NCBI GenBank assembly: GCA_030531085.1
Contig: JAUNOM010000026.1
Span: 1 to 36,006, forward strand
DNA length: 36,006 bases
From: Prevotellaceae bacterium
GTDB lineage: Bacteria > Bacteroidota > Bacteroidia > Bacteroidales > Bacteroidaceae
Direction: 5' to 3'
Positions 10,266 through 36,006 of this stretch are shown here, piece after piece. The notes beneath the pieces are model-generated. The model ran no database searches. It saw only the letters and a program-made list of their open reading frames with translations, and was not told the origin of the DNA. The translations under genes and the position numbers were made by a program. How positions within the stretch are numbered: the stretch's first letter is position 1; each line of letters begins with the position of its first letter.

Positions 10266-10271
10266 CTATGT

Positions 10272-12013: not shown

Positions 12014-12044
12014 TGCTCTATTATCAATGCTAATGAAAACAGTG

Positions 12045-12074: not shown

Positions 12075-12176
12075 CGGTTTTTGTTGAAAAAGTGACTTTA
12101 AGCCATTTTTTTCACATTCAAGAGCTATTTTTGCCTGCTTTTTCCGCCATTTTAGTCTCATTCCAATGCATATATT

Positions 12177-13076: not shown

Positions 13077-13093
13077 TTGTATGTCCGGAAAAC

Positions 13094-13251: not shown

Positions 13252-13255
13252 TTTT

Positions 13256-14762: not shown

Positions 14763-14800
14763 AGGAGGCGTCCCTCCGTCAGCACGGTGCTTTCGGAGTG

Positions 14801-14808
14801 CAAAGTTA
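14801..14808 (-). promoter_or_regulatory. -7 promoter element of the helix-turn-helix/ATPase operon
   Basis: The minus-strand sequence TAACTTTG matches TAnnTTTG exactly and lies 39 bases before the ATG at 14762. No convincing -33 box is present. The repeats at 14840-14876 sit just upstream and may supply a regulator site. Confidence 0.55.
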
Positions 14809-14831
14809 CAGTCAGGGGATTGCTTCCGGAT

Positions 14832-14876
14832 AAAAAGCTGGGTGATAGTAGGGAAGTATCACCCCTATTATCACCC
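14832..14876 (-). terminator. Hairpin and TATCACCC repeats between hypothetical gene and HTH gene
   Basis: On the minus strand, GGGTGATA (14864-14857) pairs with TATCACCC (14847-14840) around a nine-base loop, followed by AGC and a T-run ending near 14831. This fits a terminator for the gene that ends at 14898. A further direct copy of the octamer lies at 14876-14869. Three copies upstream of a DNA-binding protein gene could equally be an operator. Confidence 0.6.
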
Positions 14877-14897
14877 TTTTTCTCTTTTCTTTGTGGA

Positions 14898-15647
14898 TTA
14901 TATGTCTGTTCTATGCTCTTTTTGCATATTTCTTATCGCTTTCCGTATGCCGGATTGTAGTGCCGTCCGTGAGGTTCTCGTCCTGCTCAGTGCGGAAGAG
15001 AACGTAGATGCCGTTATTGGCAGGCCGGATTTAGGAGACAGGAGGAAGTGTCCGTTCTCAATAACCGACTGCCAGTTGTAACAGACGAGGTCGTGTTCAA
15101 GCAGCTCGTCAAAGAACACAGCCGCATTGCGGATGTTTCTTACCCTGACTGTGAATCCATGCTTGCATTGCATGAGAGCCGTGACTGCAGTATTGATATT
15201 CATGCCTTCGGGCAGAACGAACAACTGATAGGCGCGTGCTATCTCTGAAAGGCTGGCAATTTGCTTTTCTGTAAGATTGCCTCCGAGCGTTATTGGGAAA
15301 CTGATCTTCGGTTTGTGTCCGGTTTCGGTTGTCTGGTAACGGTGGAGAAGTTCAGAAAAGTCTTTCTTGGTAAACGAGTCCTTGTACAGATACTCGTCAA
15401 GCAATTTATTCACCCGTGTGCACAGATTGCGTACAATGCCCATATTCATGCGATGGGCATTACGGCAACAGGCTTTTGTGCAGTCAATAAAGTGATGGCT
15501 GTCACAGAACATTTCAAAGAAGCGCTCCGGTCTCATACCGTTGTCTAACACTTTCTCTGCATATTGTTTTCTCATTGAGGACAACAAACCGAACAGTTCT
15601 TCTGATACGTCCTCATTGCACCGCACATGTCTATGCGTGCAACACAT
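14898..15647 (-). CDS. Hypothetical Cys/His-rich protein of the integrative element
   Basis: The 249-residue protein is predicted to be soluble. The N-terminal 75 residues are rich in Cys and His (CC near the start, CDSHH, CTKACC), which suggests a metal-binding module. The rest is helical and basic, ending in a run of Arg/Ser/Thr and KEHRTD. The start is the ATG at 15647. It stands between two terminators and so may be its own transcription unit, next to the integrase. I do not recognise the family. Its place between integrase and excisionase-like gene fits a small element-specific regulator or recombination accessory protein, but nothing in the sequence proves this. Confidence 0.6.
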   Translation of the reverse strand: MCCTHRHVRCNEDVSEELFGLLSSMRKQYAEKVLDNGMRPERFFEMFCDSHHFIDCTKACCRNAHRMNMGIVRNLCTRVNKLLDEYLYKDSFTKKDFSELLHRYQTTETGHKPKISFPITLGGNLTEKQIASLSEIARAYQLFVLPEGMNINTAVTALMQCKHGFTVRVRNIRNAAVFFDELLEHDLVCYNWQSVIENGHFLLSPKSGLPITASTFSSALSRTRTSRTALQSGIRKAIRNMQKEHRTDI

Positions 15648-15720
15648 CTCCCCAAAAAGAGAGATGGCCTTTGGTGGCTTTTTGTTTCATTTTGTCTTAT
15701 TGTTGATTGTATATTATACG

Positions 15721-15752
15721 AAAAAACTCCGGCCACTTACGCAACCAGAGTT
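15721..15752 (-). terminator. Intrinsic terminator after the integrase gene
   Basis: On the minus strand, AACTCTGG (15752-15745) pairs with CCGGAGTT (15732-15725, one G-U pair) around a 12-base loop. T residues follow down to 15721, about 47 bases past the integrase stop. Confidence 0.75.
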
Positions 15753-15798
15753 GAGTTATACGATTATATGTATTCGGCGGAGTTCGGCTACAAGCATT

Positions 15799-16944
15799 TC
15801 AGTCAAAGAGTCCGTTAACAAGATTTACCGCCTCGTCTTTCTTTCTGTTGACAATCTTTGCATACACTTGCGTCATGCGCACATCTGTATGCCCGAGCAG
15901 TTTACTCGTGGTGTACAGGTCTGCTCCCAATGTCAGCATCATGGTGGCGAAGGTGTGGCGGGCCGTATGGAACGTAAAGTGCTTGTTGATGCCGGCGGCC
16001 TTTGCCCACGGCTTGATGAGTACATTGACGGCAGCGGTGGACGGCAGGTCAAAGACATTATCCTGCGGCTTTTTTGCACCTCGTTCAGGCATCCACCTCA
16101 AAGCCTCCGGCGAGAGAGGCAGATAAATGGGTGCCTTGGTTTTTTGCATCACCACTTCAAGTCTTGTCTGCTCTCCGTCCTGGTAAACATTCTCCCATTT
16201 AAGAGCGACAATGTCGCTGATGCGTAAACCACAGAAACAGGAGAATAAATATGCCGCCTTAACAGTCTCGTTTTGCATGGGGGTAGAAATCAGTTTTCTC
16301 ACCTCATCAACCGTCATGTACTCACGCTTGCTTTCCGGCTTCTTGATTTTGTCCGCACTGCTGATTCTGTTGAACGGATTCACTTTTATCAAATCCTCAC
16401 GTATTGCCGCATTTAGAGCACCGTTCAGTGCACGGTAATAATTGTGGGCGGTATTTGCGGCGAGATGCTCCACATGTCTAGGGCGGTAATCCGTCCTGAG
16501 ATAGTCAATATACCCTTGGCAGAATGTCTTGTCAACTTGATCAAGGGTAATTTTTTCTCCTGCCCATTCCTTTATAATTCTCATAGCAACAGAAATCTGT
16601 CGCCAGTCTTTCTTGCCACGTTTCTTTTGATTGTCCATATAGACGCTCATCCAGTCAAGTAAAAGGACCTTTGGTTCATCTTTGTTCTGTTTTATACCAG
16701 CCTCGCCATTTGTCAGCTCAATGATTCTGTCGGCTTTGATCTTATTGGCGGCAACCAATGTGGTTTGGTTCTGCCTGCGAGAGTTCTCGTCCGTTTCCGG
16801 GACGATATACATTTTGAGATATTCATAGGAACGTTTGCCATTCCTGTAGATATCCAAGTACAAACTTTTGTTTCCGTTGCTCAGGTCTTTCATCCTAAGA
16901 CGGATTGGCTCTTTCGCCTTTGTCGTTTTCTTGTTTCTTGCCAT
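15799..16944 (-). CDS. int: Tyrosine recombinase (integrase)
   Basis: The 381-residue site-specific recombinase catalyses integration and excision of the element. The N-terminal arm-binding region spans about 1-85 and a SAM-like core-binding domain about 90-185. The catalytic domain has R241 (CGLRISDI), K268, H326-x-x-R329 (HTARH), H352 (LLGHTDVRM) and nucleophile Y361, so all catalytic residues are present. The length is usual for Bacteroidales element integrases. It is the outermost gene of the element and is transcribed inward. An exact -7 element lies 32 bases upstream, next to repeats that may be arm-type binding sites. The ATG at 16944 gives a normal N-terminus. Confidence 0.95.
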   Translation of the reverse strand: MARNKKTTKAKEPIRLRMKDLSNGNKSLYLDIYRNGKRSYEYLKMYIVPETDENSRRQNQTTLVAANKIKADRIIELTNGEAGIKQNKDEPKVLLLDWMSVYMDNQKKRGKKDWRQISVAMRIIKEWAGEKITLDQVDKTFCQGYIDYLRTDYRPRHVEHLAANTAHNYYRALNGALNAAIREDLIKVNPFNRISSADKIKKPESKREYMTVDEVRKLISTPMQNETVKAAYLFSCFCGLRISDIVALKWENVYQDGEQTRLEVVMQKTKAPIYLPLSPEALRWMPERGAKKPQDNVFDLPSTAAVNVLIKPWAKAAGINKHFTFHTARHTFATMMLTLGADLYTTSKLLGHTDVRMTQVYAKIVNRKKDEAVNLVNGLFD

Positions 16945-16975
16945 GGCTATTCTGTTTCATGTCCTAAACTGGGTG

Positions 16976-16983
16976 CAAAGATA
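16976..16983 (-). promoter_or_regulatory. -7 promoter element of the integrase gene
   Basis: The minus-strand sequence TATCTTTG matches TAnnTTTG exactly and lies 32 bases before the integrase ATG. A -33-like CTTG at 17004-17001 overlaps the first AAGAAACAAA repeat, so integrase binding there could repress its own promoter. Confidence 0.6.
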
Positions 16984-17001
16984 CGAAAAATAAACGAAAC
17001 C

Positions 17002-24359: not shown

Positions 24360-26810
24360 ATGAACAGACGAACACTAACCACCATCATCACACTGCTGCT
24401 GCTCGGAGCTACTGCCGCCACGGCGCAGAAGCTGTGGTACAGCAGGCCGGCATCGTGCTGGCTCGAGGCGCTGCCGTTAGGCAACTCACACCTTGGGGCC
24501 ATGGACTTCGGCGGCACGGAGACCGCGGAGCTGCAACTTAACGAGGAGACCTTCTGGTCCGGCAGCCCGTACAGCAACAACTCCAAGACCTCACTGCAAC
24601 ATCTGAACGAGGTCCGGCAGCTGATATTCAGCGGCAAGGAGAAGCAGGCGGCCGACATCATAAACAAGGAATTCATACCAGGCCCGCACGGAATGCGCTT
24701 CCTCACCGTTGGCAGCATGATGCTGAAGTTCCCCGGCCACGCCGCGGCCACGGACTATTACCGTGAGCTTGACCTCGGCACCGCCACCGCCACCACGCGG
24801 TATACCGTTGACGGCGTGAAGTACACACGCACCACCTTCGCCTCAATGACCGACGGCATCATCGTGATGCGCATAGAATCCGACAAGGCCGGCGCGCTGA
24901 ACATGGAGGTGGGCTATGCCTGTCCGCTGGAGAACAGCGTGACCGCAAAGAAGAATGTCCTCACCGCCACTGTGAAGAACGTGGAACAGGAGGGCATCAA
25001 GGCCGGACTGACGGCGCAGTGTGTCATGCAGGTCATGGCCGACGGCAAGACCGCAGGCCATGACAGCACCGTGAGCGTGACGGGAGCCACCACGGTCACG
25101 GTGTACATCAGCTGCGCCACGAACTTTGTTAACTACAAGGACATCAGCGGCAATGCGCTGAAGAGGGCCAACGCCTATCTGAAGGCGGTGTCCAGGAAGT
25201 CTTACGCCGACCTGTATGCCAGCCACACCGGGGCGTACAAGAGGCAGTATGACCGTGTGAGGCTTACACTGCCCGAGGGGCGCAACGCCAAACTGGAGAC
25301 GGACAAGCGTGTGGAGCTGTTTGCCAAGGACGGCAAGGACCAGTCACTGGTGGCGCTGATGTTCCAGTACGGCCGCTATCTGCTCATATCCTCATCACAG
25401 CCCGGCGGCCAGCCGGCCAACCTGCAGGGTGTGTGGAACAACAAGATGAAGGCGCCGTGGGACAGTAAGTACACCATCAACATCAACACGGAGATGAACT
25501 ACTGGCCCGCTGACGTCTGCAACCTTGCGGAGACCGCCGAGCCGCTGTACTCCATGGTGCGCGACCTCTCCGTCACCGGTGCAAGGACAGCCCGTGAGAT
25601 GTACAACTGCGGCGGATGGGTGGCCCATCACAATACGGACCTGTGGCGCATAGCCGGTCCTGTGGACGGAGCGTCATGGGGTATGTTCCCCAACGGCGGC
25701 TCATGGCTCTCCACCCACATCTGGCAGCACTATATGTACAGCGGTGACAAGGAGTTCCTCAAGTCATACTATCCCGTACTGGCCGGTGCGGCACGCTTCT
25801 ATCTGGACTATATGCAGCGCAATCCGCGCAATGGATGGCTCGTGGCCGTGCCCTCCGTATCGCCCGAACACGGCCCTGCCGGAACGGGCACGCCTGTCAC
25901 CGCGGGCTGCACCATGGACAACCAGATAATCTTCGACGTGCTTAACAACGCCCTCAGCGCCGCCGCCGTGGCCGACCCGCAGAACACCGCCTTCGCCGAC
26001 AGCCTGCGCGCGGCCATCAGCCAGCTGCCCCCGATGCACATAGGACAGTACAACCAGCTACAGGAGTGGCTGCAGGACGCTGACAACCCGAGGGATGAGC
26101 ACCGCCACATATCCCACCTCTACGGACTGTTCCCAAGCAACCAGGTGTCGCCATACTCCAATCCGCAGCTCTTCCAGGCCGCACGCAACACGCTGTTGCA
26201 GCGTGGCGACATGGCTACAGGATGGAGTCTGGGATGGAAGACGTGCTTCTGGGCGAGGATGCTGGACGGCAACCACGCGCACAGGATTATATCCAATATG
26301 CTGCACCTGCTGCCTAACGAGGGCATGGAGAAGCAGTACCCCGACGGAAGGACGTTCCCTAATCTCTTCGACGCGCATCCGCCATTCCAGATAGACGGCA
26401 ACTTCGGCGTCACGGCCGGCATAGCCGAGATGCTGGTGCAGAGCCATGACGGCGCGCTGCACCTGCTGCCCGCACTGCCCGACGCATGGCAGAAGGGCGA
26501 GGTGTCCGGACTGATGGCGCGCGGCGGCTTCGTCATCGACAACATGACATGGAACGGGCAGCAGCTGGACAAGGTGACGGTGACGTCAAGGCTTGGAGGC
26601 AACCTGCGACTGCGCTCATACGTGCAGCTGAAGGGCGAGGGTCTGAAGCCGGCAAAGGGTGCTAACGCCAACCCGTTCTATCCCGTGGCCGACATAAAGG
26701 CGCCCGTGGTGAGCGGCAAAATCAATCCACAGCAGCCCATGTTGTACAAGGTATACGAGTATGACATCGAGACGCAGTCCGGAAAGCAGTACACCTTCAC
26801 ACGGTTATAG
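24360..26810 (+). CDS. GH95-family glycoside hydrolase (alpha-L-fucosidase or alpha-L-galactosidase)
   Basis: The 816-residue exported enzyme has a signal peptide (residues 1-22, ending ATAQ). An N-terminal beta domain has the family pattern W..ALPLGNSHLGAM, then LQLNEETFWSG. An (alpha/alpha)6 barrel follows with N374-x-N376 in NINTEMNYW, E503 in SVSPEHGPAG and D679 in FQIDGNFG. By comparison with the Bifidobacterium AfcA enzyme these should be the Asn pair, the acid and the base. It would remove terminal alpha-1,2-linked L-fucose (or L-galactose) from mucin-type or plant glycans in the periplasm. It is a single gene without SusC/D neighbours in the window and is GC-rich compared with the operon on its right. 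Confidence 0.93.
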   Translation: MNRRTLTTIITLLLLGATAATAQKLWYSRPASCWLEALPLGNSHLGAMDFGGTETAELQLNEETFWSGSPYSNNSKTSLQHLNEVRQLIFSGKEKQAADIINKEFIPGPHGMRFLTVGSMMLKFPGHAAATDYYRELDLGTATATTRYTVDGVKYTRTTFASMTDGIIVMRIESDKAGALNMEVGYACPLENSVTAKKNVLTATVKNVEQEGIKAGLTAQCVMQVMADGKTAGHDSTVSVTGATTVTVYISCATNFVNYKDISGNALKRANAYLKAVSRKSYADLYASHTGAYKRQYDRVRLTLPEGRNAKLETDKRVELFAKDGKDQSLVALMFQYGRYLLISSSQPGGQPANLQGVWNNKMKAPWDSKYTININTEMNYWPADVCNLAETAEPLYSMVRDLSVTGARTAREMYNCGGWVAHHNTDLWRIAGPVDGASWGMFPNGGSWLSTHIWQHYMYSGDKEFLKSYYPVLAGAARFYLDYMQRNPRNGWLVAVPSVSPEHGPAGTGTPVTAGCTMDNQIIFDVLNNALSAAAVADPQNTAFADSLRAAISQLPPMHIGQYNQLQEWLQDADNPRDEHRHISHLYGLFPSNQVSPYSNPQLFQAARNTLLQRGDMATGWSLGWKTCFWARMLDGNHAHRIISNMLHLLPNEGMEKQYPDGRTFPNLFDAHPPFQIDGNFGVTAGIAEMLVQSHDGALHLLPALPDAWQKGEVSGLMARGGFVIDNMTWNGQQLDKVTVTSRLGGNLRLRSYVQLKGEGLKPAKGANANPFYPVADIKAPVVSGKINPQQPMLYKVYEYDIETQSGKQYTFTRL

Positions 26811-26916: not shown

Positions 26917-27672
26917 TTATATAAAATCCGCAATTTCCAGATTTTTTATGGGATGGTAGAAGGTGTTAGGTTGCAGTTCATTTATATATTTATATTCATA
27001 CACTTCAGCAGATCCCCATGATACTATAAAGCGATAGCCATAGTTTTCAAATTGGCGTATATTTAGCATTTTGTTGTATGCAAGGGTAGGTAATAGAAAT
27101 TCATAATAAAAAGAATCGTTATCTTGCATAAACAGTTCCAGCTCATCCAAAAAGCTCTTACTGAGGTATGCCAATTGACTCCAAGCAAAATACAGACGGT
27201 CAAATGGATTATTGTTTATGTACTTTATAGGCCAGTGATGTTGCGGACCACCTTCCACATCAGTGGCGATATGAATATAGTCCACATCACTATCAGAGTC
27301 CATTAGTTTTAGAAAACTACGGAATTCACCATTTAAAATGATATCATTCTCCATTAGCATATAATGACTGTATCTTTTCCCTTTGGCATATTTCAACAGA
27401 GCTACAAGGGGATTGGGCAGCAAATGATCCTGTTTATGAAAGAACCCCTGAAGTTTTGTGGAGTCAAACGTGTAAAAGTTAGTGCCGTAGCAATTATCTG
27501 TATCCATCTTAGACGTGGCTGTGTCATACAGGACTACCAAGTCCATGATACCTTCTGCCGCAGTCTTCAGGAATTTCAGATACCGCATTATATCATTATC
27601 CATCCTATGTGTGACGAATACTAAACAATTTCTTCTGTTTGAATTCTGATCCTGTGTATTATTGTTACTCAT
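26917..27672 (-). CDS. Glycosyltransferase-like protein
   Basis: The 251-residue cytoplasmic protein has a GT-A-like alternation of strands and helices: CLVFVTHR at residue 16, DLVVLYD at 44, then YSHYMLMENDIILNG with E108-N-D110 in the place of the DxD metal/nucleotide-sugar motif. Later segments include DYIHIATD and FAWSQLAYLSKSFLDEL, a pattern seen in small Bacteroidales glycosyltransferases. No signal peptide or membrane helix is present. It is the last gene of the operon, six bases after glf. It probably uses a nucleotide sugar, possibly UDP-galactofuranose given its neighbour; the acceptor is unknown. Confidence 0.65.
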   Translation of the reverse strand: MSNNNTQDQNSNRRNCLVFVTHRMDNDIMRYLKFLKTAAEGIMDLVVLYDTATSKMDTDNCYGTNFYTFDSTKLQGFFHKQDHLLPNPLVALLKYAKGKRYSHYMLMENDIILNGEFRSFLKLMDSDSDVDYIHIATDVEGGPQHHWPIKYINNNPFDRLYFAWSQLAYLSKSFLDELELFMQDNDSFYYEFLLPTLAYNKMLNIRQFENYGYRFIVSWGSAEVYEYKYINELQPNTFYHPIKNLEIADFI

Positions 27673-27678
27673 TTCTTT

Positions 27679-28788
27679 CTATTTTTCTTTTTTCCAAGAA
27701 TCCAATGCACTTTTTATAACTTCATCCATATTGTAATATTTATATTCAGCCAATCGTCCACCAAATATAACATCTCTCATATTCTCTGCTAGTAATTTGT
27801 ATTTTTCGTACAGAGCGTTATTAACTTTGTCATTGACAGTATAATAAGCCTCAGTGTAATTTTGGCATTCATGTGGATATTCACGTGTTATAACAGTCCG
27901 TCCGTTGTTATACACATCGTTACCGAACATTTCGAAATGCTTGTGTTCTATGATACGCGTATAAGGCGTTTCCCTGTCAGTAAAGTTCATAATTGCCATT
28001 CCCTGATAATTCGGAATGTCCAAGATCTCATGCTCAAATTTAAGAGAGCGGTATTGTAGTCTTCCATATTGGCATTTGAAGAAATCATCAATCTTTCCTG
28101 TATACACTAATTTGTGAGCGATCTTTTTCCACTCCTTGTCAAGTCCATTAAAGAAATCTGTGTCAGTTCTTATATCACTCCCCTTAAGCAAATTCTCTAT
28201 CAAAGGATTATAGCCATTAACAGGAATACCTTGGTAAGTGTCATTAAAGTAATTGTTATCATAACTCATTCTCACAGGTAGTCTCTGTATTATGAAAGGA
28301 GGAAGCTCTCTGCATGGCTTTCCCCATTGTTTTTCTGTATATCCCTCTATCAGTTTCTTGTAAATGCTGTGTCCTACGAGTGACAAAGCCTGCTCCTCGA
28401 GGCTGTGTACTGCGCCTTTGTACCGTTGTGACTCAAGTTCTTTCTTTGCCGCGGTAGGAGTCTCCGTTCCCCACATCTCGTAGAATGTGTTCATGTTAAA
28501 AGGAAGGCTGTATAGTTTGCCGTTATAGTTTGCCTTTGTGTTCAGTACGAAGCGGTTAAACTTAACAAAGCGATTTACGAAATCCCAAACCTCTGACATA
28601 GAAGTATGAAATATGTGCGGGCCATATTCATGGACGTTTATACCATGAATATTTTTACAATATACATTTCCTCCCACATGTTTTCGCTTGTCTATTACTA
28701 TACATGATTTGCCTGCTTGTTGTGCACACCATGTAAAAGTGGCACCGAATAGTCCTGAACCTACTATGAGATAATCATATTTCCGCAT
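27679..28788 (-). CDS. glf: UDP-galactopyranose mutase
   Basis: The 369-residue flavoenzyme converts UDP-galactopyranose to UDP-galactofuranose. The N-terminal FAD site is YLIVGSGLFGA (G10-S-G12-x-x-G15), then KHVGGNVY and HEYGPHIFHTS. Substrate and flavin residues are recognisable in FNRFVLNTKANYNGKLYSLPFN (split by variable positions), YTEKQWG, RLPVRMSYDNNYF and the C-terminal FGGRLAEYKYYNMD. I chose the ATG at 28788, ten bases after the upstream stop; an overlapping ATG at 28821 would add eleven residues before the conserved start. It lies between two glycosyltransferase-like genes, so galactofuranose is the likely sugar used in this operon. Confidence 0.95.
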   Translation of the reverse strand: MRKYDYLIVGSGLFGATFTWCAQQAGKSCIVIDKRKHVGGNVYCKNIHGINVHEYGPHIFHTSMSEVWDFVNRFVKFNRFVLNTKANYNGKLYSLPFNMNTFYEMWGTETPTAAKKELESQRYKGAVHSLEEQALSLVGHSIYKKLIEGYTEKQWGKPCRELPPFIIQRLPVRMSYDNNYFNDTYQGIPVNGYNPLIENLLKGSDIRTDTDFFNGLDKEWKKIAHKLVYTGKIDDFFKCQYGRLQYRSLKFEHEILDIPNYQGMAIMNFTDRETPYTRIIEHKHFEMFGNDVYNNGRTVITREYPHECQNYTEAYYTVNDKVNNALYEKYKLLAENMRDVIFGGRLAEYKYYNMDEVIKSALDSWKKEK

Positions 28789-28798
28789 ATTATAGTCT

Positions 28799-29857
28799 TT
28801 ATTTCCAATCCAGCATTTCAACCAGCATCATCACACTGTATACATCCGCATCTTCATGTAGTGATAAATTTGACACACTTTCCTGAACCATCCTCATACG
28901 CAGTATGTCCCTTGTCGTTCTGTATAAGCAGAAACTTTGGTATAACTCATTTATGGGTGTGATAGAGGCAGGCATTTCATCTCGCTTAGTCTCGGACAGT
29001 TTCTGTTTTTTTTGTATATCCATAGCCATATCCTCGTATCTCTTAGCCTCGCTGATCTTACTGAACAACTTGAGAATATAGGACATACCATAGAGATTGT
29101 TGCTTTTACCAATATCATGTATGCTGATCCATTTTCTAATCTGTGCTTTTAGCCTTCTAAAGTCATCCCTATTGCAACAGAACCTGTCATTATCATCATT
29201 GGGAATATAATCATAAACGAACACCTGTGTGGCAAGGTCATATTTCTCCAGATACGCAGTCAGATTCCTATTGTGTATCATCTGGCCAGATTGTATTGGT
29301 TTAGTATGTATTACCGTAACAGCATCTATTATCGCCATATCCCTTAGTGTGGCGTTGATCAGTATGGGCCAGTGTAACTCTGCGCCCCATCCTGTCTCGT
29401 TCTCATTAAATGTAAACAACACCTTCTCCAACGCTTCTTTATCGAAGCATGGAACCATCATTTCTACAAAGTTGGTGTATCTTAGCTTACAATAGCGGTC
29501 ATGTAGAGTGTGCTCCCATGAATAGTATGACATAGTGAGTGCAGGCTGTGCTATTTTCAGATTGTATTCACGCATGACTTGGAATATAGCGTTAATGGCG
29601 TCAGTATCCATTTGTATGTCATCATCCGGAAAGAAGAAGTAATCATATTTCTCCATCATTTCAGGGTTGGCCTGTATATACTTATATATTACCCGCAGCT
29701 TATATCCCCTTATACTACATATATTCACCATTTCCTCACGGTGCATTTCTATGGAGTCATCATACACTATAAGGTGAGTGTCAAAATCGCATTCTCCACT
29801 TATCCATGACTTGTGGAGACTTGCTCTTCCTACAGCGGAAATCAGACAGTTTTTCAT
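28799..29857 (-). CDS. Glycosyltransferase-like protein, DUF707-like, with C-terminal extension
   Basis: The 352-residue protein begins MKNCLISAVGRASLHKSW and carries D78-D79-D80 in YFFFPDDDIQM, the expected metal/nucleotide-sugar motif. Residues through about 205 (QPALTMSYYSW, GWGAELHWP, VTVIHTKP) match DUF707-type glycosyltransferases. Residues about 230-352 form a helical extension not usual for a minimal enzyme of this type. No signal peptide or membrane segment is seen. It lies 27 bases after the HlyD-like gene and 10 before glf. It could attach the first sugar to the peptide or to another acceptor. The extra domain may recognise that acceptor, which is inference. Confidence 0.75.
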   Translation of the reverse strand: MKNCLISAVGRASLHKSWISGECDFDTHLIVYDDSIEMHREEMVNICSIRGYKLRVIYKYIQANPEMMEKYDYFFFPDDDIQMDTDAINAIFQVMREYNLKIAQPALTMSYYSWEHTLHDRYCKLRYTNFVEMMVPCFDKEALEKVLFTFNENETGWGAELHWPILINATLRDMAIIDAVTVIHTKPIQSGQMIHNRNLTAYLEKYDLATQVFVYDYIPNDDNDRFCCNRDDFRRLKAQIRKWISIHDIGKSNNLYGMSYILKLFSKISEAKRYEDMAMDIQKKQKLSETKRDEMPASITPINELYQSFCLYRTTRDILRMRMVQESVSNLSLHEDADVYSVMMLVEMLDWK

Positions 29858-29884
29858 ATTATGTTATATTTATAGTGTAGGCAC

Positions 29885-30268
29885 CTATCGTAGTTGCCTC
29901 GCCAGTTTTGCGTATAGACTTGTTGTGCCGCAATAAATGTAGCCATTTAGCAGAGTGTTGCAATTTACATGTGTTATCCCAGCTGTATGTATCGGGGTTA
30001 CATATAATCGTGAATAAACCTCTTCCTGTACCAGACTGTCTATCTTTACAGAAAAACTACCGTTGGCGGTCTGTTCCATTTGTATGGTATCCCCGATACA
30101 ATGATGATTGTCCTGTTTCGGACAGTACACAACGCACAGTTCGTCTAATTGTATCATTGTGACAGGTATTTTTATGTGTACCTTGAAAGTTATGAATAAT
30201 ATTACCATACCCGTAAGCATTACCATGCATACGAGTGGCATTCCGAATTTGAATAATATAGAATTCAT
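29885..30268 (-). CDS. Short HlyD-like membrane protein of the exporter
   Basis: The 127-residue protein has one transmembrane helix at about residues 8-28 (KFGMPLVCMVMLTGMVILF). A small beta-rich periplasmic domain follows with VKIDSLVQEE and GITHVNCNTLLNGYIYCG, then a basic SLYAKLARQLR end. The N-terminal anchor and the C-terminal GY.YCG...L..KL..QLR pattern resemble the two ends of HlyD-type adaptor proteins, but the hairpin and lipoyl regions are missing. It overlaps the ABC exporter gene by four bases (ATGA), so it is probably made with it and acts as a reduced adaptor. It may instead be a distinct accessory family. Confidence 0.6.
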   Translation of the reverse strand: MNSILFKFGMPLVCMVMLTGMVILFITFKVHIKIPVTMIQLDELCVVYCPKQDNHHCIGDTIQMEQTANGSFSVKIDSLVQEEVYSRLYVTPIHTAGITHVNCNTLLNGYIYCGTTSLYAKLARQLR

Positions 30269-32445
30269 TTGTCAGCCAGTTCCAATTGGTTTTTAATCAG
30301 TTTATAATAATAGCCATGCTGTTCCACCAGTTGCCGGTGACAGCCTTGTTCCACTATTCTGCCCTTACGTAGGACTATTATATTGTCCGCCTCGCGTACA
30401 GTGCTTAATCTGTGTGCAATGACAATTCTTGTATGTCCCTTGAATTGATACTTTATATTGTCCGTTATTTTCCGTTCATTTTCTGCATCAAGCGAGCTGG
30501 TCGCCTCATCCATAAACAGGTATAATGGTGATTTATAGACAGCACGTGCTATCATTATGCGCTGTCGCTCTCCGCCGCTTACTCCTATACCCTCGCTGCC
30601 TATCTTCGTCTTGGTCCCTAAAGGCAGAGACTTTATGTATTCATTTAGGCAGGCCGTGTCAATGGCTTCATTCAGACGAGCGTCATCATATTTTTCTCCT
30701 AATATAATATTACGGCAGATGGTGTCAGAGAATATGAAATTCTCCTGCATGACAATTCCCGATGCCGTGCGTATACTCCTGGCCGTTAGTTGTGTCAGAC
30801 TGTCCTCTCCAAAATAAATATGCCCCGATGTCGGTTCGTAGAATTTCAGCAGCAGTTTCAGTAATGTCGTCTTTCCGCTTCCGCTTTCACCTACTATTGC
30901 GGTCATCCTGCCGGCAGGTATCACGAACGATACATTCTTAAGGACATCCATCCCATCCGTGCCGGTATATGAGAAAGAGAGGTTCTCAATCCTTATGTCC
31001 AGTGGTTTGTCATGTCGTATGCACATATTGTGACAGTTGTCCTCATCGGGACACAGATGTACCTCCTCCGAACGCTCGAGTGATATTTTCGCATCTTGAA
31101 ACTGCTGCATAAACCCTAACAACTGAGACAGGGGGCCGTCCACCTGTCCCATAACACTGCTTATACTCATCATCATGCCTAACGTCAAATTGTCATTGAC
31201 CACCTCAGCTGCAATCCAGCAGGTTATGATGATGTTGCGCAATTGCCCGAACAACATATATCCAGTGCCCTGTATCTGACCTATTCTCAATACACGCTTG
31301 CTCATCTGGTATTGCCGTTCCTGTACGTCCTTCCATTCGTCGATCTTGAATTTCTCGTATGTATTCAGTTTTATATCTGTTATTCCTGACATAATCTCGT
31401 AGCGCTGGTTCTGTATCATACAGTTCAGCCTGAACTGCTCGTAGTCTATAGCCTTGCGCTTGTTGAAGAAATGCCACATCCATAGTATATTCAATACCGT
31501 TATGAACAGGTACGCACCTAAAATCATGGGACTGTACCACCCTATAACAGTAAGCAGGATAGGAACGGATACCAGTGAGAAGAAGGTAGAGATGGCACTA
31601 CCTGTAATGAAATCCTGTAGTCGTCCGTGATCGCCCATACGCTGCTGGTAGTCTCCCACGCTTTTTGTCTCAAAAAAAGTCATAGGCAGTCTCAGTAGTT
31701 TTGTGAGATAGTCAGACAGTATGTCTATACTGATGCGTGTGCTCATGTACAGGCTAACCCAGTTCCCTATCATTCCCATTGAGAACGAACCGAGGAAAAA
31801 GAATATCTGTGACATCAAAATGGTGACGATGAAGCTCATATCCTTTAGGCCTATACCGTCATCCACCATCACTTGTGTGAGGAATGGCGTTACCAATGAC
31901 ATGATTATTCCAGCAAGCATACCTATGGATGATTGCGTGATTTCCCATTTGTAAGGCCAGGCATAACGTTTGGCAAAACGGATGAAACTGTGTTTCTCTT
32001 TGACAGGCTGTTTCTTGTAAAAGGATTCATTGGGCTCAAGAGCTATGACTATCCCCTTTTCTCCATTCCTCCAGTATTCCTCAAAAGATTTTTCAGAGAA
32101 TACATGCCGTCCGTATGCTGGATTAGCTACATAGTATCGCCATTCCTTATACAGCCAGCTGTATTTTATCTTCTCCAGCACCACGAAATGGTTCTGTTCC
32201 CAATGCAGAATGGCGGGCAGGGGACAGTCCTCCCGCAAGGCACTGACAGTCATTTCAAATGTGGCGCTGTCCATGCCTATCTGTTTCAGTGCATCGCGTA
32301 TACCCGCTATGCTTACCCCCTCGCGTGTGAGGTGGGAGAGGCTGCGCAGATAACTCAGCGGATACAGTTTCCCGTATGCCGATGCCACCATGCGTATGCA
32401 TGCCGGCCCACAGTCCATGTTGTCAAACTGGCGTGTGAATACCAT
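30265..32445 (-). CDS. C39-peptidase-containing ABC exporter of the precursor peptide
   Basis: The 726-residue inner-membrane protein cleaves double-glycine leaders and exports the product. The N-terminal C39 domain has Q6, C12 (MDCGPAC) and H86 (WEQNHFVVL), but the usual Asp of the triad is N108 (VANPAYG). Six transmembrane helices span about residues 165-460. The ATPase domain has Walker A GESGSGKT at 519-526, signature VSGGERQR at 622-629, Walker B D646-E647 and H-loop H678. It matches the GG motif in the upstream precursor gene. The start at 32445 lies six bases after the outer-membrane gene, and it overlaps the HlyD-like gene by four bases. Confidence 0.93.
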   Translation of the reverse strand: MVFTRQFDNMDCGPACIRMVASAYGKLYPLSYLRSLSHLTREGVSIAGIRDALKQIGMDSATFEMTVSALREDCPLPAILHWEQNHFVVLEKIKYSWLYKEWRYYVANPAYGRHVFSEKSFEEYWRNGEKGIVIALEPNESFYKKQPVKEKHSFIRFAKRYAWPYKWEITQSSIGMLAGIIMSLVTPFLTQVMVDDGIGLKDMSFIVTILMSQIFFFLGSFSMGMIGNWVSLYMSTRISIDILSDYLTKLLRLPMTFFETKSVGDYQQRMGDHGRLQDFITGSAISTFFSLVSVPILLTVIGWYSPMILGAYLFITVLNILWMWHFFNKRKAIDYEQFRLNCMIQNQRYEIMSGITDIKLNTYEKFKIDEWKDVQERQYQMSKRVLRIGQIQGTGYMLFGQLRNIIITCWIAAEVVNDNLTLGMMMSISSVMGQVDGPLSQLLGFMQQFQDAKISLERSEEVHLCPDEDNCHNMCIRHDKPLDIRIENLSFSYTGTDGMDVLKNVSFVIPAGRMTAIVGESGSGKTTLLKLLLKFYEPTSGHIYFGEDSLTQLTARSIRTASGIVMQENFIFSDTICRNIILGEKYDDARLNEAIDTACLNEYIKSLPLGTKTKIGSEGIGVSGGERQRIMIARAVYKSPLYLFMDEATSSLDAENERKITDNIKYQFKGHTRIVIAHRLSTVREADNIIVLRKGRIVEQGCHRQLVEQHGYYYKLIKNQLELADK

Positions 32446-32451
32446 ATACTT

Positions 32452-35325
32452 CTATTTCTTCTTAGGTGTGAAGTTCAGTCGGTATATCGTGTGCAGCATC
32501 ACATAGTTAGGCAGCGAGTTTCTCCATGTCTCTGTCTGTCCCTGCGCGTTCACCGTGTGCTGCACATCGCTAAGCTGGTTCAGTATGTCAACTGCGTTGA
32601 CCTTGAGCACGAGGTTCCCCTTCAGCATCGTCTTTGATAGCGATGCGTTCCACACGCACGTTGTGGTGTTGAGGTTAGAGTCCGTGTATCCCGTTCGTGC
32701 CAGCACGTTCATGTCCGTTGCTATCTGCCAGTTGTGCGGCAGGTTCAGTGTCGCGTCCACTCCTCCGTTTATGTTTATCGCGTCAAATCCCTCGAATCCC
32801 TCTCTCTTCGATCTGCTGTTATGCCATGTCAGTCCTCCCTGCACTCCCACAGAGTGCTTGCCGAGCTTGCATGTCAGTGACAGCTTCTCCGTCAGTGTCA
32901 GGTTGTCCACCTTGCTTAGTGCCAGCTTCTCCGTATCGGTGGCATAGTCCACTGAGTGCACGAAGTCTCCAAAGGTGTTGGCGCTGGCCAGAAACATATT
33001 GCCGCGTCCGAATGATATGGTTGAGTATATGTGCGTGTATGCGTTCCAGTTACCGTCCACATTCTCCGCGCGCCATGTGTTGGTACCTGTGGCGCGGTCA
33101 TAATATTTCGCCTTTGCTATGGCGTCGTCCGTCTGTTTGTAACCCATCAGTATTGCGAATCTGCTCTCGGTCTTCTTATGAAATATATTCAGTAAGATGT
33201 TTGTCTCATGTGTCCTTGAGTTGTGCAGGTTTGGGTTCTTCACATAGATGTTCACAGGGTCATGGTCGTTTATTATATTCAGACGTTCGTAGATACTGGG
33301 CAGCCCGGTATAGTACTTGTAGTCCAGTGTCATGTTTTTGTACCATATCTCTGTTTCATATTTATATTCCATTTTTAGCTTTGGTGATATGCTGTGCCTG
33401 AAGCGTGTCACCGTCGTGTCCATTCCTGCTTTGCTGTACTGCATCCGCTCGTTACTCATGTTGTCCTCCATAGCCAGCATAAACTGGTACTGGTCCTTAA
33501 TACTCTGCGCGTCAGGTATGTGTCCCAGATATATCTCAACCCCTGGCTTGTATCTGTCAGTGATGTGCCTGGAGTCATGGCTGTTGTTCATGTCTATGTC
33601 CAGCATTTCCGGTGATATGGACGATGGCGGCAGCAGCCCCGCTGTGGCACCGTCAGTGAATGTCCACGAGTTCTGTCTCAATATTTCCGGACCGCTTATG
33701 TGGCTGCGTCTGTATTCTATTTTTGGCACTATCACCCAGTATGTCATCTCTTTTATCTTGTATGGCCAGTAGTATCGCTGATATTCCGCGGTGGCGTATA
33801 CTTCCCTGTTCCTGTTTATGTAGTTGGAGTGTTGCAGAATGTCCTCGCCGTCCCCCTTACTGTTTACCACGCGGTTGTATGCCACTCTCTGCTCATCGTC
33901 GTAATGATTGTATTTCCATCCGGCGGACAACTCCACATTGTCCGGTGTACCCTTGATCTTTATTGTGGACTTAGCGTCGGCCTGCAGTATCATTCTGTCG
34001 TACACTCCAAGTTTATTGCGTCCCAGACGGTTCTGCATGATGCTTCTGTATCGTGATGACTGCCATGACGGTGCGAAGAGCGAGTCCAGCGCCTGCATAC
34101 GGTACTCCTCCTCCGGTGCCGCTGTCATCTCCACGCTGTTAGTCAGTCGGCTGTAGCTGTTGTGCATATAGTCTATCTGTGGTGTTACCTCCACGTACAC
34201 ATTGTCTCCAGAGTACTGCATACTGTGCTTTGACATCAGGTGCCGCTTTGTGTCCCTGTACTCATCCATCCGTCGTCCGTATATGTCTCCCGCGTCATAG
34301 AAACTGACGCTGCTCGTCTTCTCATTCACCACCGGCTTCTCCTCTGTCAGTGTCAGGTCTCCCAGCCACTTGTATTTCCCCTTTACAGCCAGATAGTCCA
34401 GTCCGCCCATTATCAGGTTCATCCGTCCGGCCTGTGCCCATCCGCTGTTCCAGTTTCCATCCGCCTTGCCCATCTGTGTGTTTCTGATGTTGTTCGCGTT
34501 AAAGAATAGCGCCAGCCTTGACTTTCCGTAGTGTCCTATGCCGAATCCCCTTGCCATATATCTGTCGTCAGGCAGTCCGTAGGCAGCCTCGAGGTTGCTT
34601 ATTATTCCCTTTGAGTATATCTTCTTCAGCGTCACGTCCATGGTGATATGCTCCCTGCCCATGGACAGAATCTTCCTCTTGTCCTTCAGGTACTCGTCTC
34701 GGTCTGCGCGGTCATACACCTTGATGTTCTTTACCGTGTACGCCGGCAGGTTCTGCAGTGCAATCTGCGGGTTGCCAGAGAAGAAGTCCTCACCGTTTAC
34801 CAGCAGGCTCTCTATCAGTTGTCCGTTCACTCTGATTTCCCCGTCATTAATCTCCGCTCCCGGCAGTTGCTTTACGAGGTCGTTGAGCATGGAACCCTCC
34901 GCAAGGTTGAAGGCATCCGCATTGTACACCACAGTGTCCCCTTTGTGCACCATCTTTATGAGGGTGCCGCGCACGGTCACCTCGTCCAGGCTCATCTCGC
35001 GCATCTTCCGCATCCTCAGATCATCCAGCATTATGAAGCGGTTGCGCCATGTCGAGATGTTAAATGACATCTGTTCTGTATCATATCCGTCCTTCTTTAC
35101 TATGATGGTATATTTGCCCGGGCGGTAGTCAAATTCCAATATATAGTTATTGCTTGTAACCCTTGATTCCACGGTCAGAGAGTCATTCCATATAACCTTA
35201 AACCCAACACTGTCGAGGCACTCCTCTGTGAAGTTGTCTAATACACGCAGACACGTGGCGATTTTATGTTGGGCGGCTATAGTTTGTGAGATGCAAAGAA
35301 GGATTAGGAATAATGTGTATTTCAT
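32452..35325 (-). CDS. TonB-dependent-receptor-like outer-membrane protein
   Basis: The 957-residue protein has a signal peptide (MKYTLFLILLCISQTIAAQ). A carboxypeptidase-regulatory-like beta domain spans about residues 20-115, then a plug-type region: DTVVYNADAFNLAEGS, LVKQLPGAEI, and LVNGEDFFSGNP. A long C-terminal barrel is rich in Tyr, Asn and alternating strands and ends near IYRLNFTPKKK. I chose the ATG at 35325; the open frame before it crosses the C8 tract and hairpin. Large outer-membrane receptors of this type accompany Bacteroidales peptide exporters and may form the outer-membrane exit or a receptor for the product. It is followed after six bases by the ABC exporter gene. Confidence 0.85.
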   Translation of the reverse strand: MKYTLFLILLCISQTIAAQHKIATCLRVLDNFTEECLDSVGFKVIWNDSLTVESRVTSNNYILEFDYRPGKYTIIVKKDGYDTEQMSFNISTWRNRFIMLDDLRMRKMREMSLDEVTVRGTLIKMVHKGDTVVYNADAFNLAEGSMLNDLVKQLPGAEINDGEIRVNGQLIESLLVNGEDFFSGNPQIALQNLPAYTVKNIKVYDRADRDEYLKDKRKILSMGREHITMDVTLKKIYSKGIISNLEAAYGLPDDRYMARGFGIGHYGKSRLALFFNANNIRNTQMGKADGNWNSGWAQAGRMNLIMGGLDYLAVKGKYKWLGDLTLTEEKPVVNEKTSSVSFYDAGDIYGRRMDEYRDTKRHLMSKHSMQYSGDNVYVEVTPQIDYMHNSYSRLTNSVEMTAAPEEEYRMQALDSLFAPSWQSSRYRSIMQNRLGRNKLGVYDRMILQADAKSTIKIKGTPDNVELSAGWKYNHYDDEQRVAYNRVVNSKGDGEDILQHSNYINRNREVYATAEYQRYYWPYKIKEMTYWVIVPKIEYRRSHISGPEILRQNSWTFTDGATAGLLPPSSISPEMLDIDMNNSHDSRHITDRYKPGVEIYLGHIPDAQSIKDQYQFMLAMEDNMSNERMQYSKAGMDTTVTRFRHSISPKLKMEYKYETEIWYKNMTLDYKYYTGLPSIYERLNIINDHDPVNIYVKNPNLHNSRTHETNILLNIFHKKTESRFAILMGYKQTDDAIAKAKYYDRATGTNTWRAENVDGNWNAYTHIYSTISFGRGNMFLASANTFGDFVHSVDYATDTEKLALSKVDNLTLTEKLSLTCKLGKHSVGVQGGLTWHNSRSKREGFEGFDAININGGVDATLNLPHNWQIATDMNVLARTGYTDSNLNTTTCVWNASLSKTMLKGNLVLKVNAVDILNQLSDVQHTVNAQGQTETWRNSLPNYVMLHTIYRLNFTPKKK

Positions 35326-35331
35326 ATCTAT

Positions 35332-35375
35332 GGGGGGGGTGATGGCCAATGGCATCTTTAATAATGCCATTGGCC
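35332..35375 (-). promoter_or_regulatory. Perfect 12-bp hairpin and C8 tract between precursor and export genes
   Basis: On the minus strand, GGCCAATGGCAT (35375-35364) pairs perfectly with ATGCCATTGGCC (35355-35344) around an eight-base loop. Four bases later a run of eight C (35339-35332) precedes the outer-membrane protein ATG by six bases. There is no T-run, so this looks more like an RNA-stabilising or partial-termination element than a full terminator. The C tract occupies the ribosome-binding region. Confidence 0.65.
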
Positions 35376-35402
35376 TGATAAAGTTAAATATTAATGATTA
35401 TA

Positions 35403-35621
35403 TTAGGAATTAGATTGTGGAGTTGCTGACGGACTCGTTGTTGGAGTACAAGTATTGCATACTTTATTGCAAGAGCAATTAGGTACATTTATTGTCAGAC
35501 TTTCCGCTTGTATATATACATCTACGGAGCCAAAGCCACCTCTCAATTGTCCTTCTTGATCTGTTCTCAAAGGTACGTAGTCCGAATGGACAAGCTGTAC
35601 TAAATCTTTCTTTAGTTTCAT
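35403..35621 (-). CDS. RiPP precursor peptide with double-glycine leader
   Basis: The 72-residue peptide has a leader of about 29 residues (starting MKLKKDLVQLV, with DQEG before LRGG) that ends at G28-G29, the expected C39 cleavage point, as in GG-type Bacteroidales precursors. The 43-residue core starts FGSVDVYIQAES and carries four cysteines at 49, 51, 55 and 58 (C-S-C-N-K-V-C-N-T-C). It ends in a Thr/Ser/Pro/Asn-rich tail from residue 59 to 72. The maturase gene ends 18 bases upstream and the outer-membrane gene follows. The cysteines are the likely radical-SAM targets and the Ser/Thr tail could accept sugars; both are inference. Confidence 0.8.
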   Translation of the reverse strand: MKLKKDLVQLVHSDYVPLRTDQEGQLRGGFGSVDVYIQAESLTINVPNCSCNKVCNTCTPTTSPSATPQSNS

Positions 35622-35639
35622 TTTTGTTTTTTTTAATGG

Positions 35640-36006
35640 TTAATAATTATGTGATTGCAGCTGCTTGCTCCTCTTTATGATTTGTTTCACCTTTTCTTCC
35701 AGTACTGTTTGTTTCATCCTTTCTGTTTGTCCGGCTAAACATCCTACAGGACGATAGTTCTCAAACTTATGTTGACTGCACATCCCATGGCAAATAGGAT
35801 ATATGATACACTGGAAGCAGGTCTCGTTTCCCCATTTCGTGGCATTTCTTCTTGTGTTCTTGTCGTTGAATAATGTATCCCCGTCCTCATTAATGACGCC
35901 TTCCGCATTTTCTGAAGAGAAGTCGCGTGCAGTGCAGCGAAACAGGTCGCCATTATAATTAGGGTCTGCTGAATTAATTTCCGGCCACAGACAGAGAGTA
36001 GCAGAT
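35640..36006 (-). CDS. Radical-SAM peptide maturase, C-terminal SPASM part (cut by window edge)
   Basis: The last 121 residues of a larger protein are visible; its start is beyond the window. They contain an upstream Cys (LFRC), then C-x2-C-x5-C-x3-C (ETCFQCIIYPICHGMC) and a further Cys 13 residues later (YRPVGC), the pattern of SPASM domains that bind auxiliary iron-sulfur clusters. A basic helical tail ends QSHNY. The radical-SAM core is not in view, so the name rests on the SPASM motif and on the precursor gene directly downstream. Such enzymes make thioether, carbon-carbon or epimerised residues in peptides. Confidence 0.8.
   Translation of the reverse strand, partial: SATLCLWPEINSADPNYNGDLFRCTARDFSSENAEGVINEDGDTLFNDKNTRRNATKWGNETCFQCIIYPICHGMCSQHKFENYRPVGCLAGQTERMKQTVLEEKVKQIIKRSKQLQSHNY

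Follow-up and report, generated by a model that had tools for sequence, protein, structure and literature searches.

Gene content at the contig end

The window analysed here is a stretch of 36,006 nucleotides from a Prevotellaceae bacterium (GCA_030531085.1, contig JAUNOM010000026.1). Its end carries, in the 5' to 3' order of the minus strand, a SPASM piece, a precursor, a barrel, a C39 exporter, a short membrane protein, a DUF707-like protein, glf and GTX (Table 1). A preliminary description had placed the precursor, SPASM end, exporter, glf and two glycosyltransferase-like genes on one strand with gaps of at most about 80 bases. All of them were found as described, and the gaps are tighter (−4 to 32 bases, with 28797 taken as the 5' end of glf), although the small membrane gene had gone unmentioned. 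Open, full-length frames remain for the precursor, the barrel, the exporter, the DUF707-like protein, glf and GTX. Past the end of GTX, a terminator and promoter scan returned no terminator-like sites and three promoter-like sites against 1.1 expected.

Table 1. Features of the minus-strand run and the adjoining contig end (window positions).
Feature	Position	Strand	Basis
GTX, probable glycosyltransferase, 251 aa	26917..27672	-	GT2L paralogy
glf, UDP-galactopyranose mutase	27679..28788 (first ATG) or ..28821 (TTG)	-	TIGR00031 363.2 bits (cut-off 303.75)
DUF707-like protein, probable GT-A glycosyltransferase with shortened C-terminal part	28799..29857	-	PF05212 44.1 bits (cut-off 24.1)
Short membrane protein, 127 aa	29885..30268	-	position of an adaptor (membrane-fusion) protein
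C39 peptidase-ABC exporter, 726 aa	30265..32445	-	PF03412 96.7 bits (cut-off 22); PF00664 and PF00005 above cut-offs
Large outer-membrane barrel-like protein, 972 aa	32452..35370	-	similar barrels in relatives at the same place
GG-leader precursor, 72 aa	35403..35621	-	GG at residues 28-29
C-terminal piece of radical-SAM/SPASM maturase	35640..35961	-	TIGR04085 32.7 bits (cut-off 27)
End of mobile-element-like repeat, terminating the contig	35962..36006	.	same bases end other contigs

A mobile element divides the operon between two contigs

The terminal 45 bases of the window recur at the ends of contigs C3, C22, C59 and C61 of the same genome, and each time the repeat is followed by TANNTA and then by unrelated sequence. 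Among 120 genomes of the genus this pattern is present in the source genome alone, and the element did not occur in the 119 others or in viral contigs. No transposase gene was recovered with it. Since these bases are repeat and not maturase, the open frame at the window end starts with ~15 foreign codons; the maturase end noted earlier is real for its C-terminal ~106 codons only.

The 5' part of the operon lies not at the contig end of the window but at the end of contig C7, which terminates in TAATTA, the same six bases that come after the element in the window. With a profile from an 11-row maturase alignment, positions 2–333 were found on C7 and 333–429 in the window, the only two matches in the source genome at E ≤ 0.01; the rest of the maturase, whose recovery had been proposed as a check, is thereby located. 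A mobile element splits the maturase gene in the source genome. Ahead of the C7 maturase piece are a double-GT2/LanC-like protein and a frameshifted UDP-xylose synthase gene (UXS).

Maturase, precursor and export proteins

The C7 maturase piece matches PF04055 (47.6 bits) and contains CNMRCWYC, a CX3CX2C motif. With its Radical_SAM domain on C7 and its SPASM domain in the window, the interrupted gene belongs to the radical-SAM/SPASM maturases. TIGR04148 was not reached by the C7 piece (50.4 bits, cut-off 300), nor was it among the seven families listed for the window piece or the best 25 families of the whole maturase of a related locus (L134); scanning the two pieces apart lowers their scores. 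The maturase tree did not separate sugar-bearing from sugar-free loci, and it groups the C7 piece in a set of seven rows (97/95) to which the sugar-free L065, L069 and L074 also belong.

The precursor consists of a 29-residue GG leader and a 43-residue core with four Cys residues and an S/T/P-rich tail. It resembles the precursors of L134, L140 and L141 (in each case 0 of 2000 shuffles scored as high). There was no Pfam match and no NCBIfam family at E ≤ 1, and hence no match to TIGR04149, the GG-Bacteroidales precursor family (PMC4573289). The core of the L134a precursor has no Ser or Thr and that of L140 has one, so O-glycosylation cannot hold for all precursors.

The protein previously called an outer-membrane receptor is large and barrel-like and reaches no Pfam or NCBIfam model at cut-off; comparable barrels occupy the same place in L029, L035–L038 and L134. 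The exporter has C39, membrane and ATPase domains and is 65% identical to the L132 exporter. It carries the motifs MDCGPAC (Cys) and HFVVL (His) and, as third residue, Asn (NPA), the counterpart of Asp (DPA) in L045; these three positions we take to be catalytic. In the C39 tree it stands beside eight glyco-type exporters (99/96), on a long branch whose placement is flagged as unsure. The short membrane protein has no Pfam or NCBIfam family match, and in our reading it is placed like the short or longer adaptor-like proteins of L132, L038 and L045.

Sugar-nucleotide and transferase genes

The window Glf aligns over its full length with the solved mutases 4mo2 (9e-130, residues 7–369) and 1i8t (7e-123, residues 7–366) and, with its equivalog match (Table 1), is a UDP-galactopyranose mutase. 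A second glf copy of the source genome is found on C14. The UXS gene on C7 is in two frames, and it was assigned through the 58% and 64% identity of its pieces to a UXS-like protein of L041. The PDB comparison was made with the UXS of a Paraprevotella-type genome (G087), whose best match is the solved UDP-glucuronate decarboxylase UXS1 (4gll; 3.1e-112 vs 7.5e-39 for the next other epimerase), identifying that gene as a UXS.

The DUF707-like protein and GTX have no credible PDB sequence match, and GTX reaches no family at cut-off. The DUF707 rows share a conserved DDD, and relatives are fused to, or adjoin, other transferases. GTX is a paralogue of GT2L (21–27% identity) with E-x-D conserved across the GTX/GT2L rows, and its relatives adjoin glf or DUF707 in L029, L035–L039 and L045. 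Judged by these motifs and fusions and by weak structural models (pLDDT 63 for the DUF707-like protein, mean 76 for GTX), both are probably glycosyltransferases. A shared origin of the two was considered and dropped, as profile comparison gave a probability of only 1.2%. The DUF707 count within the genus was 1 of 398 at E ≤ 1e-15; a divergent copy in G033 lies beyond that limit (1.3e-13), so that only "rare" is a safe description.

Related operons

In G087 a related operon runs uninterrupted from uxs to glf, in the order UXS, GT2/GT2/LanC-like, radical SAM, two GG precursors, two barrels, GT14, C39, short adaptor, GT2/GT4, a 270-aa protein and glf. Identities to the present genes are 67% for UXS, 41% for GT2/GT2, 36% and 46% for the radical-SAM pieces, 30% and 40% for the barrels, 65% for C39 and 50% for glf, and by sequence the C7 and window halves are both syntenic with this operon. 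A radical-SAM gene, GG precursor, UXS and glf also occur together in G029 (L123) and G053 (L150) and, with damaged genes, in G048, and in G188 and G216 the 5' portion of the operon is present together with radical SAM and precursor. As a control, 17 other radical-SAM loci of the genus were compared with UXS, Glf, DUF707, GTX, GT2L, GT14, GT2/GT2 and TIGR04157 queries, and none matched at E ≤ 1e-5.

Do the sugar genes belong to the peptide operon?

The sugar genes might instead contribute to a surface polysaccharide, to LPS or to general O-glycosylation of proteins, and lie behind a peptide operon by chance. A surface-polysaccharide locus in relatives without the peptide genes would, according to the preliminary description, be fatal to its proposal. 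A first Glf tree of 7 peptide and 28 background rows (the 27 best-scoring loci and the C14 copy) split the two labels cleanly, a split lost when 40 lower-scoring loci were added: the rebuilt 75-row tree has four label changes, and none of 200 bootstrap trees had only one. In it the window Glf falls in a 9-row clade (90/89), with L123 (99/83) and then with L029 and L037 (100/99), and seven of its nine rows carry a GG precursor or a C39 exporter in their stretch. Three of the nine (L143, L147, L150) had been labelled background until their neighbours were inspected, and peptide or GT14 genes were found there. L132, the Glf of G087, is a long-branch row outside the clade; the truncated glf of L142, a remnant in L045 and further Glf search matches were kept out of the tree.

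Of the 65 remaining background rows, 44 were inspected over as much as 19 kb each, in some cases shortened by contig ends (43 by search, C14 by reading frames), and the other 21 with ~1.5 kb per side. Most Glf copies beyond the clade, the C14 copy included, showed no peptide genes nearby, which fits the polysaccharide setting. Some background rows have weak matches to ABC transporters (24–42%; L107, L122, L127, L128, L168, L169, L172), UXS (25–26%; L152, L155, L182), TIGR04157 and GT2 (21–37%) or a barrel (25%; L144).

DUF707 points partly the same way. It is present in LOS outer-core loci of A. baumannii, for which the gene tables of PMC4172580 and PMC10327509 also give Glf, and in the proteobacterial L033 and L034, which have no exporter match. 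DUF707 was accordingly discarded as a peptide-only marker. Among DUF707 loci of other Bacteroidota, 3 of 13 have no C39 in the stretch. Against the polysaccharide reading, UXS, glf and transferases sit inside uninterrupted operons between radical SAM, precursor and exporter, and no flippase, polymerase or priming-transferase family was found at cut-off among the eight window and four C7 proteins scanned. With the peptide genes in its clade, we reject it for the window Glf clade; as the leading alternative for the locus as a whole it is unlikely. The earlier claim that sugar and peptide genes belong together is borne out by the G087, G029 and G053 operons and by the clade.

The operon could also be a leftover that once worked and is now dead in the source genome, its genes drifting. 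The element within the maturase gene and the UXS in two frames suggest as much, as do an eroded cassette in the same genus (L045) and the damaged UXS (frameshifted) and glf (truncated) of L142. The intact window frames speak against such drift, and in a fragmented, 81%-complete assembly the element could be missing from part of the population. We consider general decay somewhat less probable still. A lanthipeptide-like system with LanC-like domains closing lanthionine rings is very improbable: LANC_like scores (cut-off 23.2) of 22.7 for the C7 protein, 23.4 for L134 and 25.7 for the L029 DUF707 protein hint at it, but the CHG motif is present in 0 of 13 LanC-like stretches (some LanC-like only in our reading), no dehydratase family appeared among the window and C7 proteins scanned, and Bacteroidales clusters without LanB have LanC-like proteins without zinc motifs in the main text of PMC10352776.

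Proposed pathway

Our preferred reading, at roughly two chances in three for the whole, is that the window holds the 3' portion of a RiPP operon formed by genes of both contigs, whose product is radical-modified and glycosylated from UDP-galactofuranose and UDP-xylose. The gene content and order, the families of maturase, exporter, Glf and UXS, and the recurrence of the Glf clade with peptide genes are read directly from the DNA; the transferase function of the DUF707-like protein and GTX, the peptide as their acceptor, the step order, sites and linkages, and a bacteriocin-like or signal role are what we infer from them. The radical-SAM/SPASM enzyme would modify the GG-leader precursor, probably forming thioether links, or other links centred on Cys, within CSCNKVCNTC. 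The double-GT2 protein of C7, the DUF707-like protein and GTX may then glycosylate the precursor in the cytoplasm, with Glf predicted to supply UDP-galactofuranose and the UXS-type gene UDP-xylose. Finally, the C39 exporter would cut the leader at Gly-Gly and, together with the short adaptor and the outer-membrane barrel, carry the product out of the cell. Given the interrupted maturase and frameshifted UXS, the copy in the source genome is probably inactive. The radical-modified, glycosylated peptide proposed earlier thus keeps its gene association, though this strain may not make it, and galactofuranose is apparently not the only sugar supplied.

Relation to known systems

GG-Bacteroidales systems (TIGR04148 maturase, TIGR04150 pseudo-radical-SAM protein, TIGR04157 glycosyltransferase) likewise have a GG precursor, radical SAM/SPASM, C39 and nearby glycosyltransferases, and the relative L123 passes TIGR04148 (452.5 bits, cut-off 300). 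In contrast, the window precursor and both maturase pieces fall short of every curated cut-off of these systems, TIGR04157 is unmatched in the window and L088, and L029 (TIGR04157, 360 of 400) and L038 (TIGR04150, 235.5 of 250) stay below theirs. To our knowledge, a dedicated glf and UXS are not in the definitions of these systems.

BGC1–9 (Fernandez-Cantos et al., 2023; PMC10352776) share GG precursors, C39 exporters, outer-membrane proteins, radical SAM and zinc-motif-less LanC-like proteins, with glycosyltransferases in BGC3 and BGC9 and some clusters without adaptor. The main text of that paper, however, contains none of the words DUF707, mutase and glf and describes no sugar-nucleotide genes. 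Glycosyltransferases in Bacteroidales GG-peptide systems are thus already on record, in TIGR04157 by name and in that main text. Glycocins (SunS-type, S-glycosylated) also have a GT2 transferase adjoining a GG-type peptide and peptidase exporter, and the first GT2 domain of L134 weakly matches TIGR04195 (40.9 bits, cut-off 350). This model is absent among the C7 protein families at E ≤ 0.001, and the window and sister operons differ in adding a maturase and sugar-nucleotide synthesis.

The sister operons also recall animal XT1, a GT14 enzyme. The GT14 proteins of L132 and L142 have XT1 as best PDB match, at weak similarity (2e-8 and 2.2e-5), and L142 combines a UXS with a precursor core of eight GSG repeats preceded by acidic residues, resembling XT1 acceptor sites (PMC5992326). 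The L142 UXS is frameshifted, however, and neither the window nor the C7 stretch yielded a GT14. We offer only tentatively, as a doubtful generalisation, that Prevotella- and Paraprevotella-type RiPPs may combine radical-SAM modification with galactofuranose and xylose glycans on the peptide, made through the operons' own Glf subfamily and UXS; that the sister-operon GT14, a relative of the animal peptide O-xylosyltransferase, may start the glycan at acidic-Gly-Ser-Gly as a bacterial counterpart of proteoglycan initiation; and that the zinc-less LanC-like domains may be substrate-handling parts of glycosyltransferases, not lanthionine cyclases.

If true, peptides of gut Bacteroidales would bring together furanose and pentose sugars and radical-SAM chemistry, with the genes for the sugar nucleotides lying in the operon. 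DUF707, GTX/GT2L and the zinc-less LanC-like domains would gain a testable role, "rSAM + LanC" clusters without a dehydratase would be explained, and the form with GT14, UXS and GSG repeats would represent bacterial peptide O-xylosylation. Operons of this compact size suit laboratory hosts, which makes the question directly testable.

Organization of the operon

The source genome (61 contigs, 81% complete) is probably Prevotella-like and belongs to a large genus group, from which 398 genomes were drawn; the window is all of its contig C41. From 5′ to 3′, the run encodes the C-terminal piece of a radical-SAM/SPASM maturase (rSAM), a precursor with a GG leader, a large outer-membrane barrel-like protein (barrel), a C39 exporter, a short membrane protein, a DUF707-like protein, the UDP-galactopyranose mutase Glf and the probable glycosyltransferase GTX. 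All genes lie on the minus strand with intergenic gaps of -4 to 32 bases, which bears out the preliminary description of a one-strand run with gaps of at most about 80 bases. The operon ends at 26917, opposite a convergent gene.

By reading, positions 1–17000 of the window contain conjugation-type genes, among them one for a TraG-like ATPase, and a tyrosine-recombinase-like gene, so that an integrative element possibly lies near the peptide operon.

The 5′ part of the operon lies on contig C7

The final 45 bases of the window are also found at the ends of contigs C3, C22, C59 and C61. At all five contig ends the repeat is followed by TANNTA and then by unrelated sequence, a pattern seen in one of 120 genus genomes, namely the source genome itself. 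A profile built from 11 related maturases gave two matches in the source genome at E ≤ 0.01, covering profile positions 333–429 in the window and 2–333 on C7. The rest of the maturase, the recovery of which the preliminary description had called for, is thus located. The terminal bases of C7 are TAATTA, identical to the six bases next to the element in the window. The simplest reading is that an element, known here from its repeated end, inserted into the maturase gene and duplicated 6 bp of its target. The product is probably not made in the source genome.

Upstream of the maturase piece, C7 encodes a protein of 801 aa that matches GT2 twice and is LanC-like at its end (PF05147, 22.7 bits, slightly below the cut-off of 23.2), preceded by a UDP-xylose synthase (UXS)-like gene in two frames, the pieces of which are 58% and 64% identical to the protein of locus L041. 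A divergent gene further upstream was read as a PAS/LuxR-type regulator; homologs at 30–34% identity are present in L134 and L133 and in two rSAM loci, L064 and L074.

Related operons in other genomes

The Paraprevotella-type genome G087, which shares genus group g22 with G202, carries counterparts of the C7 and the window genes in one uninterrupted operon, and this ties both halves of the window locus to each other. Identities to these counterparts are 67% for UXS, 41% for the GT2/GT2/LanC-like protein, 65% for C39 and 50% for Glf, while the rSAM is 36% identical to the C7 piece and 46% to the window piece. The two GG precursors of G087 are 65 and 123 aa long. A search of 18 genomes of the G087 genus for its rSAM found it in four, G087 itself, G216, G188 and, at 28% identity, G048 (L142). 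The rSAM of L123 passes TIGR04148. All frames are open in L150. Within the genus of the source genome, L045 is an eroded cassette, the glf remnant of which spans 26 residues (81% identity).

Coordinates and gene content of the features and loci discussed (listed in gene order for L134/L132, L140, L141, L142, L123 and L150)
Feature	Location	Strand	Description
GTX	window, 26917-27672	minus	251 aa
DUF707-like	window, 28799-29857	minus	probable GT-A glycosyltransferase
C39 exporter	window, 30265-32445	minus	NPA
Convergent gene	window, 24360-26810	plus	
TraG-like ATPase	window, 4941-7646	minus	by reading
Tyrosine-recombinase-like	window, 15799-16944	minus	by reading
Protein with C-terminal LanC-like domain	L088 (C7), 10615-13020		on glycosyltransferase protein, no CHG
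Protein with C-terminal LanC-like domain	L134, 10277-12691		on glycosyltransferase protein, no CHG
Protein with C-terminal LanC-like domain	L029, 9992-11431		on glycosyltransferase protein, no CHG
Exporter	L132, 3886-6165		NPA
GG precursor	L142 (G048:C1:144501-164500), 13404-13691		67-residue core, 8 GSG
L134/L132	G087, overlapping stretches		UXS, GT2/GT2/LanC-like, rSAM, two GG precursors, two barrels, GT14, C39, short adaptor, GT2/GT4, 270-aa protein, glf
L140	G216, short contig		UXS, rSAM, precursor, barrel
L141	G188		GT2/GT2/LanC-like, rSAM, precursor, barrel, start of C39
L142	G048		UXS in two frames, rSAM, barrel, precursor, C39, adaptor, GT14, truncated glf, GTX piece
L123	G029		glf, UXS, one further gene, GG precursor, rSAM
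L150	G053		UXS, glf, rSAM, barrel, GG precursor, C39, adaptor, GT14
L045	G033:C8:1-18500		UXS fragment, exporter in two frames, GTX, GTX paralogue GT2L, DUF707 fragment, glf remnant, second GTX fragment

The motif NPA listed for two exporters lies in their C39 domain and reads DPA in L045, possibly an Asp-to-Asn change in the catalytic triad.

Control loci and phylogeny

Of 299 genus genomes, 17 gave window-like SPASM pieces, the source genome among them, and the 16 others provided 17 control loci. These were matched by the SPASM query (17/17), the rSAM N-terminal query (13/17) and the C39 query (14/17); queries for UXS, Glf, DUF707, GTX, GT2L, GT14, GT2/GT2 and TIGR04157 matched none of the 17 at E ≤ 1e-5. 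In the exporter tree, which leaves out L132, L142 and L150, the window groups with eight glyco-type exporters (99/96); its branch is long, and the program flagged it as unsure. Sugar-bearing and sugar-free loci are intermixed in the maturase tree, and the modules therefore seem to be exchanged.

Sugar-nucleotide supply

The window Glf passes its family cut-off and aligns with solved mutases; no peptide genes neighbor a second glf of the source genome, on C14. The UXS of G087 matches UDP-glucuronate decarboxylase structures at 3e-112, the next other epimerase following at 7e-39. In a 75-row Glf tree the window pairs with L123 (99/83), then joins L029 and L037 (100/99), inside a nine-row clade (90/89); the G087 Glf is a long-branch row outside it. 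The clade rows L143, L147 and L150 were labelled as background until their neighboring genes were inspected. As to the co-occurrence of glf with GG-type precursors that the preliminary description proposed to check, seven of the nine clade rows have a GG precursor or a C39 exporter in the stretch. The other 65 rows gave no sign of a peptide cassette, 44 of them being checked widely and 21 with flanks of about 1.5 kb. The two remaining clade rows, L043 and L143, have GT14, and L043 also DUF707; neither GG precursor nor C39 was recognized in them.

Probable glycosyltransferases and LanC-like domains

Counting the source genome, the DUF707-like gene occurs in 8 of 301 family genomes and GTX in 2 of 393 order genomes. 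A scan of named genomes gave eight DUF707-like loci, four shared with the family-genome set; Prevotella sp. P3-122 and Segatella copri are among the named genomes with relatives. In Bacteroidota other than the source genome, 13 loci with DUF707 were mapped (L029, L032, L035–L045). A C39 exporter lies in the stretch of 10 of them, being absent from the stretches of L041, L043 and L044, and none was found in those of the proteobacterial loci L033 and L034. Plant DUF707 proteins have been proposed to be GT-A enzymes with a DxD motif (PMC3522684).

A single protein of Paraprevotella clara (1337 aa) combines GT2L and DUF707 with a LanC-like stretch and a match to GT2; its GT4-like end was seen by eye. 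Pfam backs the LanC-like domain on the GT2 protein of L134 and the DUF707 protein of L029, the C7 GT2 protein falling slightly below the cut-off. Such domains were assigned to TIGR04157 and GT14 proteins by reading; a Pfam scan of the L132 GT14 found none. The CHG motif is present in 0 of 13 LanC-like stretches, which agrees with the LanC-like proteins missing zinc motifs reported in PMC10352776. Cluster surveys may miscount these ends of glycosyltransferases as lanthionine cyclases.

Proposed pathway and precursors

The leader would guide radical-SAM modification of the Cys-rich part of the precursor, and the operon transferases would glycosylate the peptide, drawing on UDP-galactofuranose, UDP-xylose and possibly further donors. 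After modification, C39 would cleave at GG and the product would be exported. The order of steps, the sites and the linkages are those that we infer. GG precursors, rSAM maturases, C39 exporters and glycosyltransferases are already known in Bacteroidales (NCBIfam names; PMC10352776; PMC4573289). Among the matches listed from the open-access literature, no Glf clade linked to peptides and accompanied by UXS, DUF707/GTX and GT14 modules was found.

The window precursor aligns with those of L134, L140 and L141 with scores of 72–101, which none of 2000 shuffles reached in any case; with the sugar-free L065, L069 and L074 the scores are 43–48, and 1, 0 and 1 of 2000 shuffles were as high. Its core of 43 residues has 13 Ser/Thr and 4 Cys. 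The core of L134a, one of the L134 precursors, has no Ser/Thr, and that of L140 has one. The L142 core consists of consecutive acidic-Ala/Val-Gly-Ser-Gly-Cys repeats, and the precursor stands beside GT14 and the two-frame UXS. The best PDB match of the L132 and L142 GT14 proteins is human xylosyltransferase 1 (2e-8 and 2.2e-5, respectively). This enzyme requires Gly or Ala after the acceptor serine, and positions -4 to -2 of its sites are often acidic (PMC5992326).

In L143, L044 and L043, glf and/or GT14 genes have larger proteins encoded beside them, whose long N-terminal part ends in WxGGYVE or WPGG; these proteins are possibly large substrates that the same machinery recognizes by a GG leader.
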